In this document: positions 2,830 to 29,217 of the stretch, in pieces
Layout of the letters: the number at the start of each line of letters is the position of its first letter
Position numbering within the stretch: the first letter of the stretch is position 1
Assembly (NCBI RefSeq): GCF_026914265.1
Contig: NC_069130.1
Coordinates: 45,469,929-45,533,928, forward strand
Length of the DNA stretch: 64,000 bases
Source: Mya arenaria
Taxonomy: Eukaryota > Mollusca > Bivalvia > Myida > Myidae
Reading direction: 5' to 3'
The notes under the pieces: generated by a model
The model's input: only the letters and a program-made list of their open reading frames with translations
Told to the model about the DNA's origin: nothing
The model's database searches: none
Position numbers and translations under genes: made by a program

Positions 2830-3207
2830 TCAGTAACGGCACAAAGGTTAAGAATACGCAACGACGCAGATGCCGTCCGCATCAGCACTATGACATTACA
2901 ACCGCAGTACAGTGAGGAATCGGCTTATAGAGCGGGACATACGCTGCATGAGACCTATCGTGACATGATTCTCACGTGGCGTCACCGTCAAGTTTGTCGT
3001 CAGGGGACGGTCGACAATCGTGCTCGTCGATGGCGTTTCGTGACATTTAGTGATGTATCACGATTTAATATCACCAATGCTGACAAGGGACTGCGTTTAT
3101 ACAGGCGGCGTCATGAACGCAACGCACGTTACTGCATATTACAATATATCCGTTTGGGTGGCGGCAATCAATTTAAATTAAATTTCACCTTACAGCATTA
3201 TGATTGA
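2830..3207 (+). pseudogene. Tc1/mariner-family transposase relic
   Basis: The 105-codon open stretch 2890-3207 contains WRFVTFSDVSRFNI followed by NADKGLRLYRRRHERNARYC. This matches the family pattern around the second catalytic Asp (W..V.FSDESRF.L..ADGR..VYRRR.ER). The Glu usually found in SDESRF is Val here. Just upstream (about 2830-2890) the similarity seems to continue in another frame with in-frame stops, and downstream only an LQY..GGG remnant survives. The DDE catalytic core is incomplete and no terminal repeats were found, so this is a dead fragment. Confidence 0.75.
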
Positions 3208-3454
3208 TTTGCGACTTTCTGCATAATTTAATTTCCACAGGAGTGTTGTTTCATATTTTATTCATTTGTGGTTTGGTTATTAAATACAGCCTTAATTCAA
3301 CCACTGTAGCGTTTTTATTTACATACGTTTAGTAGTAAGGATTTGCGAAAGTGCGATGAGGCCAAATATTAATTGTTCACGGAAGATCATGCAAAGAGCT
3401 TACTTTTCCTCCTAGACTGCGAATAATCCCACTCAATATATTAAGTTAACTTCA

Positions 3455-3540
3455 TCATAATCATCATCATCATCGCCGTCGTTACCACGGCTACCACCAT
3501 CATCATTATCGACATCGTCTCAAGCTATACCACCACCACC

Positions 3541-3623
<83 letters not shown>

Positions 3624-3915
3624 CCTCCTCCTCAACTTCATCATCATCGACGTCGGCGTCGTGGTTGTTGTCATCATTATAATACGTATACTCATCATTC
3701 TAACACATTTTCATACTCATCGTATTAACCACCACAACCACCATCATCATCATCATCGCCGTCGTTACCACGGTTACCGCCATCATCATCATCGACGTCG
3801 TCGACATCGTCTCAACCACAACCACCACCCTCATCATCATCATCATCATCGTCGTCGTTACCACCACCGCCATCACCACAATCATTATCATCATCATCAT
3901 CATTCTAACACATCC
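3455..3915. repeat. CAT/CAC/ATC trinucleotide microsatellite
   Basis: Long runs of CAT and CAC triplets, interrupted by CGTCGTTACCAC-type variants that recur at roughly 3475, 3765 and 3855. Histidine-rich (+) and methionine/valine-rich (-) open frames here are artefacts of the triplet periodicity. Confidence 0.95.
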
Positions 3916-4693
3916 TCACCCTCATTGTATTAAATACAAATCAAACAATATTTTCAACGTTTAATCATATATTCTTCAATTATAATCAAATTGTGCGATA
4001 TGTTAAATAATACGCAATTATATATTCTATTATTTAGGTAACTAAATCTACTCAATGTTTGGTTATTTCTTTTGTAGCATTTGTTGATACATAATATCAT
4101 TTTGTAGATTTCATAATAATGTGAAATTTATGTAATCGATTATAAACATAGAAAGTCAACGTGTTATTGGTATACTCCTCTAATACAGAATATAAAATAC
4201 AGCTGAGCAAGGATGCCATTGTAAATAAAGAAAAAACTAAATATTCTCCATTAATTCATAATCCATAAGCGAAGTAAATACCTAACATTTATCAAATGAT
4301 ATCACATTAAACTAGGAAATTAGTTGCTTTATTAAGAGATTCTTTAAAAAAAAAAGTCGATCAAGATTAATTAACCGACTATTGCACGTGTTGATTACGG
4401 ACTGTTGTGTTATAATTAAAAAAAGAAAGTTTTCATCCGCGTTCGATATATTAAAAACACCAGCCCCAACAACATTGCTCTGTCATCTGTCAAGATAAAT
4501 CTATTTTTGGATGCATGCAAATACACAGCATAAAACAAATTAACTTTGAATACACATAGAAAGTGGTGATAATAATTAGTTCAGGGAAAAATGACATATA
4601 TTTCTATAAATAGAATGACACTTTCATTGATTGTTTCACTGTTTTTCATCAAATATGAATTCCCATAATCGATGCTAACACTAAACTTATTGT
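3916..4693. other. AT-rich region downstream of the NLR gene
   Basis: No coding region recognised. It should include the 3' UTR of the minus-strand NLR-like gene. AATAAA-like words on the minus strand are common in such AT-rich DNA, so no single polyadenylation site can be chosen. Confidence 0.5.
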
Positions 4694-19374: not shown

Positions 19375-20795
19375 AGGACACTGCAATCATACCTTTTATC
19401 AGCTGTTTCACGACCTGTTGAAGCACTTCTACGGCTTTTTGAGCTTAGGGTATGCTAGTTCAATTGTGTCCCCTTACATGATAATTCAATTCCGGGTGCA
19501 CACATGCGCTGAAGTTGGCAGTCAAGTTATGTTACAATTTAAAAGTACTCTTCCTGCAAGTTACTATGTATTTCTACACGCGTCGACCGAATTTAATACA
19601 AAAAAGTAAACATTAACTCAAACCCTTTCTCATACCTTGTCTGCAGCCTGTTGTGAATTACATCAGTATGCTAGTTCAGCTGTGTCATCTATCATGTAAA
19701 GTCACACCTGTTTAATCTGTTCCACGGAATGTGGTGCTATGGGCCGGTATGCTAGTTCAGCTGTGTCATCTATCATGTAAAGTGACACCTGTTTAATCTG
19801 TTCCACGGAATGTGGTGCTATGGGCCGGTATGCTAGTTCAGCTGTGTCATCTATCATGTAAAGTCCCACCTGTTTAATCTGTTCCACGGAATGTGGTGCT
19901 ATGGGCCGGTATGCTAGTTCAGCTGTGTCATCTATCATGTAAAGTCACACCTGTTTAATCTGTTCCACGGAATGTGGTGCTATGGGCCGGTATGCTAGTT
20001 CAGCTGTGTCATCTATCATGTAAAGTCACACCTGTTTAATCTGTTCCACTGCGTGTTGTGCCTAGGGTCGGTATGCTAGTTTAGTTGTGTCATCTTTCAT
20101 GTAAAGTTACACCTGTTTAATCTGTTCCATGGCGTGTCGTGCTTAGGGTCGGTATGTAAGTTCAGTTGCGTCATCTATCTTGTAAAGCCATACCTTTTAA
20201 TCTGTTCCACGGCATGTCGTGCCTAGGGCCGGTATGCTAGTTCAATTTTGTCATCTCTCTTGTAAAGTCAAACCTGTTTAATCTGTCCCACGGCGTGTCG
20301 TGCCTTAGGTCGGTATGCTAGTTCAGTTGCATCATCTATCTTGTAAAGCCATACCTTTTAATCTGTTCCACGGCATGTCGTGCCTAGGGCCGGTATGCTA
20401 GTTCAATTTTGTCATCTCTCTTGTAAAGTCATACCTGTTTAATCTGTTCCACGGCGTGTTGTGCCTTGGGTCGGTATGCTAGTTCAGTTGCATCATCTAT
20501 CTTGTAAAGCCATACCTTTTAATCTGTTCCACGGCATGTCGTGCCTAGGGCCGGTATGCTAGTTCAATTTTGTCATCTCTCTTGTAAAGTCAAACCTGTT
20601 TAATCTGTTCCACGGCGTGCCATGCCTTGGGTCGGTATGCTTGTTCAGTTGTGTCATCTTTCTTGTAAAGCCATACCTGTTTAATCTGTTCCACTGCTAG
20701 TCGTGCCTAGGGCCGGTATGCTAGTTCAATTTTGCCATCTCTCTTGTAAAGTCATACCTGTATAATGCGTTTAGTCTGCTATCATGTAAATTCAT
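19375..20795 (-). repeat. 81-bp tandem array derived from an exon-intron junction
   Basis: About 14 clear units (19660-20795) plus two or three decayed ones to the left, spaced 81 bp (GGTAT at 19746 and 19827). Read on the minus strand each unit carries a version of the last ~60 bases of exon 2 of the adjacent gene (GTGGAACAG-type end) and then a GTGTGA or GTATGG donor-like start with intron sequence. Units nearest 19.7-20.0 kb are almost identical, while those nearer the exon are more diverged. Three central units are jointly open in frame, each encoding 27 residues including AYRPIAPHSVEQIKQ. Confidence 0.85.
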
Positions 20796-20797
20796 AC

Positions 20798-22104
20798 CTT
20801 CTTAAGCTGTTCCACGGCGTGTTTTGCCTTGGGTCTGTTAGCTAGGTCAGTCTTATCCTCCAGCAGGGTGCGGAGCTTGAACAGGAAGTCCACTAGTTCT
20901 GTGTCCTTGACCCTCTGGTCATTGGAGTGGCGTACGCGTCGACCAAATTCCCGAACCTTAAATGTTAAGTTTGAAATAAGTATTGTCTAACATAGCTTGT
21001 AGTTGTGGTGAACATGGCCCAAAATTGAAATTCATTCAATATAAAGAAACGTGTACATGCACGTTAAGACTCCTTGGTTTATGTCATAAGTCGCAAATGT
21101 ACAATATTATCAATTAGATAGTGTATTTGTAATTGTTGCCATGGTTTTAAATGAGTATACATGGGAACTTATATATATACTTATAATACTAAACAATCTG
21201 CATTAATAACGAACATTCTTTAAAGCGGCATTCTCACAAATTGGCTGTTAAGACAACATTTTTTATATTTTGTCTGGGAATGAGCCAATGTTTGCGTTAA
21301 TGTCTGGAAACCAGTGATATAATGATAATATAGTGAGATGTTGTATGGAAAAAAGTGTTAGTAAAAAATGAGTTTCTCTGCAGTTCTTAAGTAAGTTGTC
21401 TTATCGGACTGAATTAAATGTATTGATGTGCGAAATCAGCTGAATTTGAGATAAAAATTTAATAAAAGTCAAAACTGTCAATCTGTGAGAGTGCAGCTTT
21501 AAAAAGTCAACGGAATCGTATAATATGATCATAGTGCGATTCATATTTTTACCTCTGTTAATAAATTTTGCTGTGTCGCAACGTTAAACGACAGTTTGGT
21601 GTTGAAATCCTCGCAATTCATCATGACGCTGATCACTCCGTTAAAGTCACTGTCTTTGATGGAGGCCACGGTCTTGTAACCATCAGGAGGCAGGAAACAC
21701 TTGCCTATCTCCCAGGGAATGGTGCTCCATTTGTTGGCATTCGTATTCTTCCATGATGGTCCCGAAAACCTGTGATGTTGAACTATTTCATCGCGAACAC
21801 CTTCACAAATCCCGATTAGACAAGGAACATACTGTTTTGAAGGACCGTTATGAAATCTACAGTTTCTGGTACATATTCCACGAGTTGGGCACTTCAACAC
21901 GTTTTCTGTGAAACAATGGACACATGCTGCCACGGATGGAAGACCCTTGGATGTTCTAACGGTGCTATAGATGTCCTGGTGAACGCATGTCAGCACATCC
22001 TCCAGGAAATCTTGTAATCCGTCCTTGGTGATGTTGAGGGCGAGGGCGGCCTTTACCCAGTTCTGGGCTTCCTTCTCCTTTAACAATTCTCTATAACAGG
22101 CCAT
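20798..22104 (-). CDS. Cys-rich protein of a bivalve-expanded family, exons 1-2
   Basis: Exon 1 (22104-21553) starts at ATG in ACAATGGCC and gives 184 codons ending ACAGAG before GTAAAA. Exon 2 (20956-20798) follows a TTTAAG acceptor in phase 0 for 53 codons and ends AAGAAG before GTATGA. An acceptor just upstream (exon base 22132) implies a 5' UTR exon. The N-terminus (QNWVKAALALNITKDGL) looks helical, possibly HEPN-like. A Cys/His cluster at about residues 62-98 (VHCF, KCPTRGICTRNC, PCLIGIC) suggests metal binding. The PSWKNT...PWEIGKCFLPPDGY block and the FGRRVRHSNDQRVKDTELVDF segment in exon 2 are features I associate with a large uncharacterised bivalve family; this is recollection, not a search. 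No stop ends exon 2, so further exons must lie downstream, but the adjoining DNA is the 81-bp array and none was found. A short upstream ATG frame overlaps the start. Function unknown; members may sit near immune-type NACHT proteins. Confidence 0.7.
21230..21505. mobile_element. TTAA-flanked palindromic MITE in intron 1
   Basis: The ends read TTAAAGCGGCATTCTCACAA and the inverse of TGTGAGAGTGCAGCTTTAA. It is the same family as 28452-28813 and 62497-62856. It lies between exons 1 and 2 of the Cys-rich protein gene. TTAA at each end suggests a PiggyBac/Kolobok-type insertion preference; this is inference from the target site only. Confidence 0.7.
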
Positions 22105-22221: not shown

Positions 22222-24421
22222 AAGAGCTGCACTATCACAAAGTTACTGTTTGCCAACTTATTTATTATTGTCTTGGAATGAGCCATTTTTTTGCATAAAT
22301 ATCTGCAAACTAGTGGTATTAGACTGCTGACAAAAGATCAGATTGCAGATTTTCATATTTCCATCGAAAATTGATCTTTTATGGCTAAAAGAGTTACTAA
22401 CGGTTTAAGAAAAACGCATAAAACGTCAATTTTTTTAACTAAACTGAAAATCTGCGATCTGATTTTTGTTAGCAGTCGTAGACGTATATCACTGGTTTCC
22501 ATTCATTTCATATAAATTGGGTCGTTCCAAGACAATAAAAACAAGAGATGTTTGTCAAACACTATGCCCCCCCTGAGCGCCATGTTGTCAGGATTATATG
22601 GACAATTGAATGAAATATGCATGGACCGAAATGACAGCTGATTTGTCGCTAACATTGTATGCCGTTGAGGCAGTTTTAAGATTATGACCATTCAAAGTTT
22701 GAGGATAGAGTGTGTTATGACCATGACCTTTGACTCTATGACCTCAAAATCCATAGTAGTCATCAGCTGGTCACCAAAAATCTAAATGTTAAGTTTGAGG
22801 GCCATGGGTGCAGGCATTGACAAGTTATCACACAGACAAGCATTTTTCGTTCAAGGTCACTGTAACCTTGACCTTTGATCCAATGACCCCTTAAATCATA
22901 AGGGGTCATCTACAGGTCAGACACAACTCCAAGTCAAGTTTGAGGGCCATGGGTGCAGGCATTGTCCAATTATCATTTGAAACATTTTCGCATTCAAGGT
23001 CACTGTGAACCTGACCTTTGACCCAATGACTCCTAAAATCAATAAGGGTCATCTCCTGGTCAGGCCCAACATACATGTCAAGTTTGATGATCATAGATTC
23101 AGGCATTGTTGAGATATCACTGGGAGAAGATTTGTTAACTTTTTTGCGTTAGAGGTTACTATGACCTTGACCTTGGCCTAATGACCCCCAAAGTCAAGAG
23201 GGGTCATCTACTGGTCAGGCCCAACCTTCATGTCAAGTTTGATGACTATAGGTCCAGGAATTGTCGAGTTTGCTTTCAAGGTCACTTTGACCTTGACCTC
23301 TGACCCCTTAAATCAATAGGGGTCATCTTCTGGTCAGGCCCAACCTCCAAGTCAAGTTTGAGGGCCATGGGCGCAGGCATTGTTGAGTTATCACTCTGGC
23401 AACCTTTTATCTTTCAAAGTCACTGTTACCTTGACTTTTGGCCCAATGACCCCTAAAATATATAGGGGCCATCTACTGGTCAGGCCCAACCTCCAATTCA
23501 AGTTTGATGGCCGTGGGTGCAGGCATTGTTGAGTTATCACTCAGACAACCTTTTACCATTCAAGGTCACTGTGACCTTGACCTTTGGCCCGATGACCCCC
23601 CAAAACAATAGGGGTCATCTACTGGTCAGGCCCAACCTGCAAGTCAAGTTTGAGGGCCATAGGTGCAGGCATTGTCGAGTAATGACACGGACAACCTTTT
23701 ACCATTCAAGGTCACTGTGACCTTGACCTTTGGCCCGATGACCCCCAAAAACAATTGGGGTCATCTACTGGTCAGGCCCAACCTCCAAGTCAATTATGAG
23801 GGCCATGGGTGCAGGCATTGTTGAGTTATCACTCGGACAACCTTTTACCATTCAATGTCATTATGACCTTGATCTTTGACCCGATGAGCCCCAAAAACAA
23901 TAGGGGTCAGCTACTGGTCAGGCCCAACCTCCAAGTCAAGAATGAGGGCCAAGGGTGCAGGCATATTCGAGTTATCACTCGGACATCCTTTTACCATTTA
24001 AGGTCACTGTGACCTTGACCTTTGGCCCGATGACCCCCAAAAACAATAGGGGTCATCTAATGGTCAGGCCCAAATTCCACATCAAGTTTGATGACCATAG
24101 GTCTAGGCATTGTTGAGTTATCACTCGGACAAGCTTTAAAATTATTTTACCATTAAAGGTCACTGTGACCTTGACCTTTGACCCGATGACTCTAAAATCA
24201 ATAGGGGTCATCTACTGGTCAGGCCCAACCTTCATGTCAAGTTTGATGACCATACGTCCAAGAATTGTTGAGTTATCACTCGGACAAGCTTTGGTCTACT
24301 GACGGACCGACCGACCGACATACCGACATGCCTGTGCAAAGCAATATACCCCTCTTCTTCGAAGGGGGGCATAAAAATAAAAGTTGTCAAAACGTTTAAA
24401 CTGTGAGAGTGCAGCTTTAAA
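22222..24421. mobile_element. TTAA-type MITE split by a later insertion
   Basis: The left part (22222-22540) begins AAGAGCTGCACTATCACAA and matches the intact copy at 28452-28813 through GTCGTTCCAAGACAAT. The right part (24375-24421) resumes with AAAAGTTGTCAAAACGTTTA and ends at the GAGAGTGCAGCTTTAA terminus. The interior 22541-24374 is a different element. Confidence 0.8.
22541..24374 (+). mobile_element. Tandem-repeat element A, Helentron/HINE-like architecture
   Basis: Starts ACAAGAGATGTTTGTCAAAC, followed by CTATGCCCCCC. The core holds about 10 units of roughly 145-150 bp with TGACCTTGACCTTTGACCC, GGGGTCATCTACTGGTCAGG and TGAGGGCCATGGGTGCAGGC. An ACCG/GACC microsatellite (about 24301-24320) follows. 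The 3' end folds as CCCCTCTTC-TTC-GAAGGGGGG and ends GGGGGGCATAAAA. The 5' TATGCCCCCC is the exact inverse of the 3' GGGGGGCATA. Subterminal inverted repeats, a tandem core and a 3' hairpin are known for non-autonomous Helentrons (HINEs); the assignment is inferred. Open frames here are products of periodicity. Confidence 0.75.
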
Positions 24422-24892
24422 AGTGTTGAAATAGCAACCTCATTTTTCACGACGTAAATTAAAAACATTATTGGCCAGCATAATATCCAGATTTCCCTCT
24501 ATCCGCATTTAACACTACATGAACCAAGTTTTAATACTTCATTATACATTGTAAAGATCCAGTTAAGAGATTGGTGTATTCACTGCCATAGCAGCCAAAT
24601 GTATCATAGGTGCTATACAAAGCAGATTTTATAATCTTTGGATGACATTTTTGCTGTTATAATAGGACCCTTTTCATGTGTAGTAAATTGATTCTTTATG
24701 TTGCCATGGCAACCACATTTTTGTCTGGCACGTTCGACATATCAAGTTTCTAAACACTTTTTAGTTACATATGTAAAGATTGATTCTAAGTAACATTTTC
24801 ACTATTTGTCGAACAATAAAATAAAATGATGTGCACGATGTTCGGACGGATATCCCCTACGGTGAAATCAGTAGGGGGTTAAAATTATTACA
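24422..24892. other. Intergenic DNA, nothing recognised
   Basis: AT-rich, no gene, array or inverted repeat noticed. Confidence 0.5.
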
Positions 24893-24957
24893 TAAGGCCA
24901 AAAAAAAAAATAGATGTGTTTCTGGTGGCATGGTAAAAAAAAAGAGGGTCGGTAGGT

Positions 24958-24995
<38 letters not shown>

Positions 24996-25358
24996 CTTTT
25001 ATCGGATCATAACTATCAGCGAGTAGTATCTTTTCAACTGCTATATAGGGTTAATGTTTGAATTATCAATTTTGTCATGTTTTGCCATATTGAAGCACAG
25101 ATTTTATTTTGTTTGCAGTTCATGTATTTGTTGTATGTTGTGTTTATGTACTATTTTGATATTGAATATTAAAAATGGAAAATCATTGTGATATTATCTT
25201 TTTTATTGACCAGAGTGATGGCTCTATGATATCGACATTCTTGAATCTGTTGGAAACAGCAGTATTCAGCGACACATCAAACATTCATTGTCGCTAAATA
25301 TCATGTTTTAGAGGAAGACATTCCACGATTTCACCCTTATGATTGCTCTATAGTTAAT

Positions 25359-25601
25359 GGCCCAGTTGTTCGAAACTTAACAGTCTGTTAAACTAACAGT
25401 CTGTTAAATTTCAAGACAAGGTACTTTCTTTTATGAAACAAAATTATGAAATATACTTTTAAATGAGAAGAATTATACATAATCTTTCTCCTTTTGGTAT
25501 AATTTAGTGACATTACGTCATAGAACACTTGTATTAAATACAACCTTGAAATTTAACAGACTTTAGGTTTAACAGACTGTGATGTTTCAGACAACTGGGC
25601 C
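25359..25601. mobile_element. 243-bp palindromic MITE
   Basis: The left end GGCCCAGTTGTTCGAAACTT and the right end (inverse of ACAACTGGGCC) are inverted. Further inside, AACAGTCTGTTAAA pairs with TTTAACAGACT, and AATTTCAAG with CTTGAAATTT. A possible AT target duplication flanks it. It is nested in the 3.4-kb TIR element. Confidence 0.7.
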
Positions 25602-26031
25602 ATTGTGTTTTAGAAGCTACACACATCAGTCAATTGTAGAGCTGTGAGTGATAGGTATATCTAAGACAATCAACTCCATATTAAACAAGCAACGTATTTT
25701 AACAACAAGTTTATTCTTTAAAAACTTTAAAATATTCTGACTAGAAGAATTGACTAGAAGACAATGACTATATAAAACACACAGAAAAAAGCCTGGTCAG
25801 TTGACATTGTATTTTAAAGTCTCAAGTTGAAAATGGACTGAAACCTGTTCATGCCAGACCATCCATGGTGACCAATACTTTTTTTTAAATAATTTGGTAA
25901 TGATTAATAAAAATCAGAACAGCATCTTAAAAAACAAACCATGAACATATGGAATTATCAGTATGCCAGTAAAAACAACATATTTACTGTTTATATACTA
26001 AACAAATTTTTTTGTTTCAATAGCACACCTT

Positions 26032-28155
26032 TTATCTCAGTCTATGACTTTTTACCATAAGGTCTGGCATGAACTGGCTATCAAAAACTGGACGACTGAG
26101 TAAGCTGAAAATAGCCTCTGCATGACTATTCAACTGGATCTGTTGCAATGGCTGCGATTTCAGTTTCTTTCTCTTGATTTCATTGTAACCTTGGAAACCA
26201 TCAAAATCTGCCGGTATTGAGGAAACATCCTTGAAACGCAAAGCTGCATCATTGATGGTGGTGTGATGGTTCGTCAAATACCATAAAGCGTTTGTAACTA
26301 CCTGAAAAAGAATATTTAAAGAGAAACATATAGCAGTTTCTAAAAAAATTTTACCTTTTGTTTTTGTTTGAGTTTAACGCCGGTTTTAACAAATTTTCAA
26401 TCATATAACCAGCGGGTAGTTTAGTAAGAAGTGTTCCTGGAATACCAGTACTAACCCAATTTTCTTCGCAAGTAACTACCAACTTCTCCACTTGAAATGA
26501 TAGGCGGTGGAGAACAAATGAAAGTTGTCACTAAGAACATTCCCCGCCGATTTGAACCTGCAACCTTCAGAACACAGGTTGACCGCTTTACCTTTTTAGC
26601 TAGCCGGGCATTTAAAGAGAAACTTATTGCAATTTCTAAGTATTTTTCATACAAAAATAAAGAACTTTCAAAACAGATAAAATTTGTGTTTTAATTCTTT
26701 CACTTTAAATAACACTATTATATCACTTTGACATATTTATTAAAGACACTTTGACAATCTAGTTTGTATGGTTTTATGATTTTCATTTTGTACCTGTACA
26801 GCATAGACACGTTCATCAGCTACAATACTCCTGTGTAATTTCAGGTTTCTCTGGACAAACATATCCACAACATTGTTGTACATTTCGTCTTTTCTGTTCT
26901 GGCTGGAAATAAAAATAAAATACCATACTTTAATATAAAATATAAAACTTTCAGTCTGACAAGTATTCTGAAGGTATTGCATGTAAACCAATAATAATGA
27001 ATTTTAATTTTGAACCAGTTTGATATTTATACTTTTAAATACTGTTTTTAATATTATTTATGGTGGCTGGATCAACTACTTGCACTTTTAATACCAGCTT
27101 CACTAGCACTACTTTACGTTCACATACAATCGCTGGAAACTGACAACTGCCATATTAATGTCTCAGCGATGGAAAAAGAATGACTTGAGGATTATTGTCA
27201 AATTCAATATTGACTTTTGCAGATTTTAAAAAAAACTTACCAGACAGCTTTTTTTACTGGAGGAACCTTAGCACCGCTCATCAGAATGTTGAAGGCGTTG
27301 ACCTTTTCTGCTTGGGACACCTTTGTTGGAATGGCTGCGGTCTGTGCACTTGCACAACAACACTTCAGCAGTAGTAATTTTATGTCTTGAATTGCCATCA
27401 GGGCACCAATTGTCAAGTCTGGATTGACATCATAAAGTTCATTTGAATGCAAGTTGGTCTGGAAAGAAAAAATTAATAAGAAATTACAGAAGATCCCTTA
27501 ATTTTGGAAATTCTAATCTAGGGGAATACGGACACATCTGCCCCCTCCCCCACTGACTAGGTACATTATTTATTTTAATATATATTTACATGGGGGTTAC
27601 AGCAAACCAACACTATATGTAGGTATAAATATATGGCGTCATACAGGACTGAAAATTTTGGTTCTTCATCTCATTTATACATCCAGATAAAATATGAGGT
27701 GTAAAATCAAAACTTGCACACCTGCTGGAATCACAGGGATACTGCAAACCAATTGAATTAAGTACGCCCTTGGCTGATGTATAATAATATGTTCATATGA
27801 AAGGAGAGTGTCTAAAACATCCCACAAATTGCAAGTTGCATTGCTTCAGAATGCAGACTACTTTTCACGTTTCACTGAATCATCAAAGACTCGAGACACT
27901 TTTAGTTTTTTTTCTTACCGAAACTTGTGCGTCGATTTTCCCTTTTTCTTGACCATGGATTTCTTCAAAAATATTTCGGATAGTAGCATTTGTTGGGACT
28001 TTTTTGATTTGTTTTGATCCCGGCTTGTGTTCGCAAGCCGCAAGCTCTATAGCGATCAAAAAAGATGAGATATTATTGTTATCATCCGTTAATGCCGCCA
28101 TTTTGACGCTAAGCTTAAGTATCGGCGAATAGTTTGTGTCGTCGCCGTCTAACAT
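26032..28155 (-). CDS. Four-exon gene of unknown function inside the TIR element
   Basis: Exon 1 is 28155-27919 (79 codons, from MLDGDDTNY; a second ATG at 28101 in AAAATGGCGGC has the better context). Exon 2 is 27458-27241, exon 3 is 26902-26794 and exon 4 is 26301-26032, ending TAA. Donors are GTAAGA, GTAAGT and GTACAA; acceptors are TTTCCAG, TTTCCAG and TTTTTCAG. Phases run 0, 2, 0 and all three joins keep one frame, giving 277 residues (259 from the second ATG). Intron lengths are about 460, 338 and 492 bp. The protein is soluble, with Lys-rich patches (KPGSKQIKKVP, EIKRKKLKSQP), a Cys run in exon 2 (LLLKCCCASAQ) and aromatic/His motifs in exon 4 (NALWYLTNHH, DFDGFQGYNE). No DDE, zinc finger or other domain is recognised. 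The whole gene lies inside the TIR pair and its 5' end is only about 150 bp from the right terminus, so the TIR may supply the promoter. It could be an element accessory protein, a captured host gene, or a host gene the ends happen to bracket. Confidence 0.65.
26371..26610 (-). mobile_element. tRNA-derived SINE-like insertion in intron 3
   Basis: On the minus strand the head (about 26610-26545) reads GCCCGGCTAGCTAA, GGTAAAGCGGTCAACCTG and then GGTTGCAGGTTCAAATCGGC, giving A-box-like and B-box-like (GGTTCAAATC) promoter motifs in tRNA order. A non-tRNA body continues to about 26371 (GTTAAAACCGGCGTTAAACT). The sequence type is one I recall as dispersed in mollusc genomes. No poly-A tail was identified. 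Confidence 0.6.
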
Positions 28156-28451
28156 TTACGAATTTTAATATTGTTGTCGTCTTAATTATCATTTGAACCC
28201 GAGAACATCGTCGGCGTGGGTCGAAGGGTCATAAAAAAATTACGGTCGGCGGTAAAAAAATACGGTCGGTCGGGCCACCAGAAACACATCTATTTTTTTT
28301 TTGGCCTAATATACAGCATAAAAGTATTTAAGTAATAACCTTTGTAATGGTTCACGGTTATAATACTGTTTACCAAAATAATCAATTTAATGCGATGCAG
28401 TCGCATAGCTCTTTATTTTGGTAACAAAATAAATACATACTGACATAACCC

Positions 28452-28813
28452 TTAAAGCTGCACTCTCACAGATTTACCATTTTTACAACTTTTTTATTTT
28501 TTGTCTTGGATACAGCATTTTTTTGCGTAAATATCTGCAAACCAATGATTTAAGATTGCTGACAAAAATCAGATCGTAGATTTTTATATTTACGCTTGAA
28601 AACTAATGTTTTATGACTTAAACCGTTACTAATAGTTTAAGAAAAATGCATTAAAAATCATTTTTGAACTTAAATATAAAAATCTATGATCTATTTTTTT
28701 TGTCAGCCGTCTTTTATACCTGGTTTTTATGCAGTTCCGCAAATACTGCCTCATTCCAAGACAACGAATAAAAAAGTTGACAAAACGTTCAATCTGTGAG
28801 AGTGCAGATTTAA
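28452..28813. mobile_element. Intact TTAA-flanked palindromic MITE (362 bp)
   Basis: Ends are TTAAAGCTGCACTCTCACAG and the inverse of GTGAGAGTGCAGATTTAA. Inside, TCTTGGATACAGCATTTTTT pairs with the inverse arm near 28750-28770, and AAAATCAGATCGTAGATTTT is mirrored near 28680-28705. Other copies at 21.2, 22.2 and 62.5 kb make this a family of at least four in the window. Confidence 0.8.
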
Positions 28814-29081
28814 AACAGCTTATTATTCGAGGGAATATTTTGTCTACTGATTCAGCCACTATAACAGCTGACTGCTCATTTTTTTTAAGTGAATGTATTG
28901 CAGATTTTAAAAATACTGTCATCCCATTGGGCAAAAATATAATTTCGATCTCCAATCACAGGTTCGATGAGTATATACAAATTTATTCTAGCTCGATAAT
29001 GTGAAGAAAGTTCAGCTTATAGAATAACACCGAGTCCGTTTCCTGGGCAGAGTGTCCATTTTGAGAGGCCATGAGAAAGTA
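28814..29081. other. Intergenic DNA, nothing recognised
   Basis: Open frames on both strands at about 28729-29004 partly overlap the MITE and show no domain. Confidence 0.45.
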
Positions 29082-29217
29082 CCCCTGATGGGGATTGAAC
29101 ACATTGGGTGAGAGGCGGGCACCAAAACCACTAGACCACTCTCACCCTGATGGGGATCAAACCCAAAACCTCTTGGATGAGAGGCGGACACCTATACCAC
29201 TAGACAACTCTCACCCC
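29082..29217 (-). repeat. Two tandem tRNA-like relics (SINE heads)
   Basis: Two roughly 70-bp units read on the minus strand as GGGTGAGAGTGGTCTAGTGG, ...GCCTCTCACCC..., then GTTCAATCCCCATCAGGG or GGTTTGATCCCCATCAGGG. TGGTCTAGTGG resembles an A box and GGTTTGATCCC a B box. Acceptor pairing is poor and there is no clean cloverleaf, so they are treated as tRNA-derived repeats and not working tRNA genes. Confidence 0.6.

Follow-up and report, generated by a model that had tools for sequence, protein, structure and literature searches.

The genome of the clam Mya arenaria contains a four-exon gene that lies between terminal inverted repeats (TIRs), and this locus raises the question of what such a gene encodes and why it is found there. 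The window, the whole stretch of DNA that was analysed, has a length of 64,000 nucleotides. An earlier note on this DNA proposed that the gene encodes a new accessory protein of a Harbinger-like element or that it is a captured host gene. It is most probably neither. With a probability of roughly 0.88, the copy in the window is an internally deleted, non-autonomous cut-and-paste transposon, and its gene is the 5' stump of a gene for a large protein, most probably a transposase. An orphan gene within TIRs can be an amputated transposase, and this matters for annotating repeat-rich clam genomes. The probable transposase family is one that the libraries searched do not recognise.

Ends and gene of the window element

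The features of the element are collected in Table 1. Its two TIRs are identical over 33 bp, with one additional A in a homopolymer as the sole difference, and the gap-free match is 29 nt long. Thus, both the terminal match of about 33 bp and the TAA duplication that were reported earlier are borne out. The TIRs have the form GGCC-A(10-11)-TAGATGTGTTTCTGGTGGC, inverted at the opposite end, with TAA outside each. When a 20-base end pattern was searched for with up to 3 mismatches, two sites were found in the window, and these are the TIRs; the result was equalled by 0 of 100 shuffles. A palindromic insert is nested in the element and recurs inside other element copies. There was no match to Rfam at the gathering threshold in positions 24000-29000 of the window.

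Table 1. Coordinates of the element, its gene, and associated features in the window.
Feature	Position	Strand	Basis or remark
Mobile element overall	24896..28306		gene within on minus strand
TAA target-site duplication, left copy	24893..24895	.	sequence
Left TIR, 34 bp	24896..24929	+	sequence; also terminates other genomic copies
Right TIR, 33 bp	28274..28306	-	sequence
TAA target-site duplication, right copy	28307..28309	.	sequence
Exon 1 (frame of the earlier note)	27919..28155	-	in-frame joining; probable true start 28101-28099
Exon 2	27241..27458	-	in-frame joining; homology to diverged family
Exon 3	26794..26902	-	in-frame joining; borders matched in diverged family
Truncated exon 4, stop 26032-26034	26032..26301	-	last 14 residues beyond deletion joint
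Deletion joint, 2-bp overlap (CT)	26078..26079	.	C4 copy has 2,521 more bases, holding an 824-codon frame
Nested palindromic insert, ~249 bp, 3' of gene	25356..25604	.	60-nt arms, 88% complementary

Joined in phases 0, 2, 0, the four minus-strand exons encode 277 residues, in agreement with the earlier description. The splice sites on both sides of exon 3, as well as the exon 4 acceptor, are at identical positions in L024 and L025, which are two copies of one diverged family (the exon 1/2 borders are outside this comparison). The start assigned to exon 1 probably needs to be moved. All 9 other copies that could be read at codon 14 of the exon 1 frame have a stop there, and for this reason the true start is probably the second ATG, 54 nt downstream, which would give a product of 259 residues. 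This check was made on 11 other copies, with L020, another copy that covers exon 1, left out; two of the 11 were unreadable, and two of the nine are duplicates of the window locus. When read from the second ATG, exon 1 remains open in 7 of the 11 copies, is broken in three (L010, L017, and L023), and is only partly matched in L015. The short frame as a whole is open from this ATG in the window and in its duplicate, L011.

The 277-residue product had no significant match in Pfam or among PDB sequences. A match to Endotoxin_N (E 0.037) fails the Pfam cut-off and was treated as chance. The product had been considered unlike a DDE transposase or a Myb/SANT partner, and the profile search of the 277 residues likewise found neither.

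Genomic copies and the deletion joint

A DNA search of the genome that contains the window (1.216 Gb, 18 contigs) gave at least 121 matching pieces, and 40 of 446 candidates were scored. Seventeen regions were fetched: 15 element copies (L009-L023) and the two diverged relatives, L024 and L025. Both ends of the element are present at 14 loci (L010-L023), and L009 has the left end only.

L009, located on contig C4, is the only independent copy read that carries exons 2-4. Its left end matches that of the window, and it is 98.3-98.9% identical to the window element in the matched parts. The placement of the gene within a TIR-bounded mobile element thereby holds: in a check of the genomic copies for the co-occurrence of TIRs and gene, the C4 copy has exons 2-4 together with this left end. 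In L009, exon 4 possesses 2,521 additional bases at the joint, the two sides of which share 2 bp. There is an 824-codon open frame at L009:4153-6624, and its stop is found just ahead of the resumed shared sequence. Exon 4 of the window has 75 ancestral codons and then 14 codons from 3' sequence. The last 14 residues of the 277-residue product, which come from downstream of the joint, are thus foreign to the ancestral gene. L009 is itself damaged, with a frame broken near L009:4220 and an insert of ~1.6 kb in intron 1. Its exon 1 and right end are absent from the 776 fetched bases past the last match. The full protein would have ~1,080 residues, with 170 codons from exons 1-3 (counted from the second ATG) and 913 codons from exon 4 of C4, and the window gene would encode about the first quarter of it.

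The long coding region is also present in the diverged family, where homologues of exons 2, 3, and 4 are recognisable. In both L024 and L025, the frame of exon 4 runs into a coding region that is homologous to the C4 segment, with one in-frame stop each. The window protein resembles these two copies only up to residue 263-265, which is the joint. L009 and L025 are 71% identical in the coding region, and over 368 codons they have a pN of 0.19 and a pS of 0.80, at which synonymous differences are saturated. Because pS is saturated while pN is at this level, the long coding region evolved as protein, under purifying selection. For the single exons, the same pair gives a pN of 0.36 and a pS of 0.66 in exon 2 (63 codons) and a pN of 0.24 and a pS of 0.75 in exon 4 (75 codons). 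Recent constraint is not evident between L024 and L025 (354 codons; pN 0.010, pS 0.009), and unconstrained differences are as expected for decaying recent copies. The DNA search listed the same diverged family at C9:8.47M and C7:47.08M, and five more loci have similar right ends. Among the window and the 17 fetched regions, there was no intact copy (the TIRs of L024 and L025 lie outside the sequence read).

A deletion accounts for the structure of the window copy. The full element would be a cut-and-paste transposon with GGCC-ended TIRs, 3-bp TWA duplications, and a multi-exon gene of ~1,080 codons. In the window copy, approximately 2.5 kb, including the D-D-E-like part, was lost from exon 4 by a deletion with a 2-bp overlap. 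What remains is exons 1-3 and, of exon 4, the first 75 codons, which run for 14 codons into 3' sequence. The element's own transposase would act on the TIRs of both kinds of copy, full and deleted, and the window copy, without the catalytic-looking part, would depend on other copies. The 277-residue product would then be unlike a transposase because the remainder, with the D-D-E-like motifs, has been deleted from the window copy. The reverse event, a 2.5 kb insertion into C4, was rejected in view of the continuity of exon 4, the homology in the diverged family, and the 2-bp overlap at the joint.

Deletion forms are common among the other copies. Exons 2-4 are missing in 10 of the 14 two-ended loci (L012-L017 and L020-L023), with a small piece of exon 2 kept in L020. 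L010 and L011 retain the short gene, and L018 and L019 carry another interior. Since L012 and L013 have identical breakpoints (1027/2573) at unrelated sites, the deleted form has moved. Further shared deletion forms are suggested by the DNA search matches listed. Ds of Ac and KP of P are internal-deletion derivatives of autonomous DNA transposons. Like such derivatives, the clam copies keep both ends and have an internally deleted gene, and one of the deletion forms occupies two unrelated sites. Unlike them, the clam element has a parental protein without a significant match in the libraries searched.

The short truncated gene is known from one insertion only among the copies read. The alignment of L010 and L011 (C9, 47.17 and 47.24 Mb) to the window extends across both fetched flanks with 98.9% identity, and thus the three loci represent one insertion and are not independent evidence.

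Twelve independent insertions were obtained from 16 element loci (L001, which is the window copy, and L009-L023). For this count, the window, L010, and L011 were merged, L018 and L019 were merged, and L009 was excluded as it has one end. TIRs together with a duplication of fixed length, as in cut-and-paste transposition, were found at all 12 sites. The duplications are all TWA; in element orientation, 11 are TAA and one is TTA (L015). Over the longer matches, among the matches listed, most copies at separate sites show 92-99% identity, and this suggests that the element family has moved fairly recently. A study of transmissible cancer in Mya arenaria reports the amplification of some DNA transposons (PMC10663159), and the element family could be checked in this cancer.

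Several other observations were made on these loci. The 11:1 bias toward TAA is an orientation bias for a 3-bp target that is nearly symmetric (two-sided binomial ~0.006). The element and its flanks (~24040-29157) have segmental duplicates on the same contig at a distance of ~1.7 Mb, with 98.9% identity over the stretch fetched. L010 contains an insert of ~0.9 kb, made up of internally repeated units (L010 positions 3174-4069), ~10 nt into intron 2. L018 and L019 (C3, 79.2 and 79.0 Mb) have identical near flanks, element ends, and TAA, and an interior of ~1.1 kb that is unmatched to the window element.

Affinities of the long protein

The 824-residue frame had no significant match in Pfam, NCBIfam, PHROG, or PDB sequences. 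Its best weak matches, PBDC1 (E 0.071), a PHROG (E 0.1), and a PDB chain (E 0.31), were treated as chance. At E up to 10, none of the Pfam DDE families matched this frame or partial frames from two relatives. Relatives were not confirmed in IMG/VR or GTDB contigs. When plasmids were searched by tblastn with a 264-residue query from the motif region, one match was obtained (E 7), and it was treated as chance. Candidate D-D-E residues can be picked out by eye: D339 (SDDKAKVPIG), D443 (SDGGTDQ), and E487 (APGNSWVNPAERVMS), with a spacing of 43 residues between D443 and E487. An AlphaFold2 model of the putative catalytic part, built from 3 alignment rows, has a mean pLDDT of 37.7 and is too poor to use. 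As the 824-residue frame has no significant family or PDB match, the name transposase is taken from the element context and the motifs seen by eye. On this basis, the large protein is most probably the element's transposase. It would be of the DDE type and would act in trans on deleted copies.

PIF/Harbinger transposons (PHIS) are one system to which the element can be compared. TWA 3-bp target duplications mark PIF/Harbinger according to PMC4482050, and TIRs with such a duplication are found in both systems. The Harbinger-type transposase and Myb/SANT domains were not found in the readable sequence. PIF/Harbinger possesses a DDE domain and a Myb/SANT partner; a Harbinger-type DDE domain did not appear in the Pfam search at E up to 10, and Myb/SANT is missing from the 277-residue product, a search that covers the product of the deleted copy. 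The clam element has one long multi-exon protein, as far as seen, unlike PIF/Harbinger. The TWA duplication is thus the single feature that points to Harbinger membership.

Zator and ISAzo13 (PF07592) are another possibility. The D-D-E-like motifs of the 824-residue frame resemble those of ISAzo13 only weakly, and they come in the same order, with weak statistics. A profile comparison aligns the three motif regions with ISAzo13 in the same sequence; D339 and E487 coincide with catalytic columns, but D443 is one column beside the ISAzo13 aspartate. A three-block chain scored at a level that 3 of 300 shuffles also reached, and its blocks and spacing limits had been chosen post hoc. The single blocks, however, are unremarkable, as their scores were equalled by 90, 83, and 59 of 300 shuffles. 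With hhalign, P was 0.15, and the observed score of 18.6 compares with one of 21.2 and one of 18.5 among 30 shuffles. A PF07592-type DDE domain was not found in the clam protein at E up to 10, whereas bit scores of 358 and 467 were obtained for two real ISAzo13 proteins. The ISAzo13 proteins for comparison were taken from plasmids. In size, the clam protein (probably ~1,080 residues) differs from an ISAzo13 frame, L032, of 405 residues, a comparison made with prokaryotic ISAzo13. The 3-bp duplication of the clam element is shared by ISAzo13 and Zator according to PMC10045372, and this paper and PMC5718144 describe ISAzo13 as the prokaryotic partner of the eukaryotic Zator. Taken as a whole, a Zator/ISAzo13-type DDE transposase seems unlikely, and the resemblance to ISAzo13 serves as a lead and not as proof of membership.

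No published description of this element was found in the literature searched (Repbase and most subscription papers were outside the search). It can be suggested tentatively, and with considerable doubt, that the parent belongs to a superfamily of animal DNA transposons that is still unclassified. GGCC-A(n)-TAGATG TIRs would characterise such a superfamily, together with a TWA target mostly in one orientation and a single multi-exon transposase of ~1,080 residues. The DDE core would be unlike that of any Pfam DDE family, and could perhaps be a distant eukaryotic cousin of ISAzo13.

Other explanations and surroundings

The short gene could be considered a true accessory protein of a Harbinger-like element, with the 2.5 kb of C4 as a later insertion. 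The TWA target duplications are like those described for PIF/Harbinger (PMC4482050), and no stop interrupts the short frame in the window or, when it is read from the second ATG, in L011. However, the C4 segment continues exon 4, and a homologous coding region is found in the same place in the diverged family. The overlap at the joint is 2 bp, against the 3-bp duplication of the element, and the short form occurs in one insertion only. The 277-residue product does not possess Myb/SANT or another significant domain. An accessory protein, as had been proposed, is thus contradicted by the long coding region into which exon 4 continues in the C4 copy and the diverged family, and is very improbable. 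The capture of a host gene fragment has the four exons, good splice sites, and missing transposon domains in its favor. It is scarcely credible, as these exons are present again in the C4 copy and, in diverged form, elsewhere (L024 and L025 were read and two more were listed); in L024 and L025, exon 4 is continued by the long coding region. This second proposal of the earlier note is therefore abandoned, since the exons are the 5' quarter of a large element gene whose remainder is on C4.

The truncated N-terminal product might also have been retained to repress the full transposase, by analogy with the KP-type deletion products of P elements. Copies with internal deletions are common, and both the window and L011 have an open frame when it is started at the second ATG. 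But L010 has a stop in the same frame in exon 1 as well as the insert just inside intron 2. The window and L011 differ by 4 nonsynonymous and 2 synonymous changes plus the codon 14 stop, so that constraint is not evident, and one insertion event alone is known to carry the short product. A role as a repressor is improbable. The preferred explanation is that the short gene is the stump of a deleted transposase gene.

There are other repeats in the surroundings of the element. Tandem arrays are found nearby at 22791-24292 and 20000-20766, with units of ~146 bp (rich in GATGACCCC) and 81/161 bp. To the right of the element, a large imperfect palindrome occupies 28452-28813. Its end, TTAAAGCTGCACTCTCACAG, recurs inverted nearby (24373-24420 and 21453-21502), and this palindrome is possibly a member of another miniature element family.
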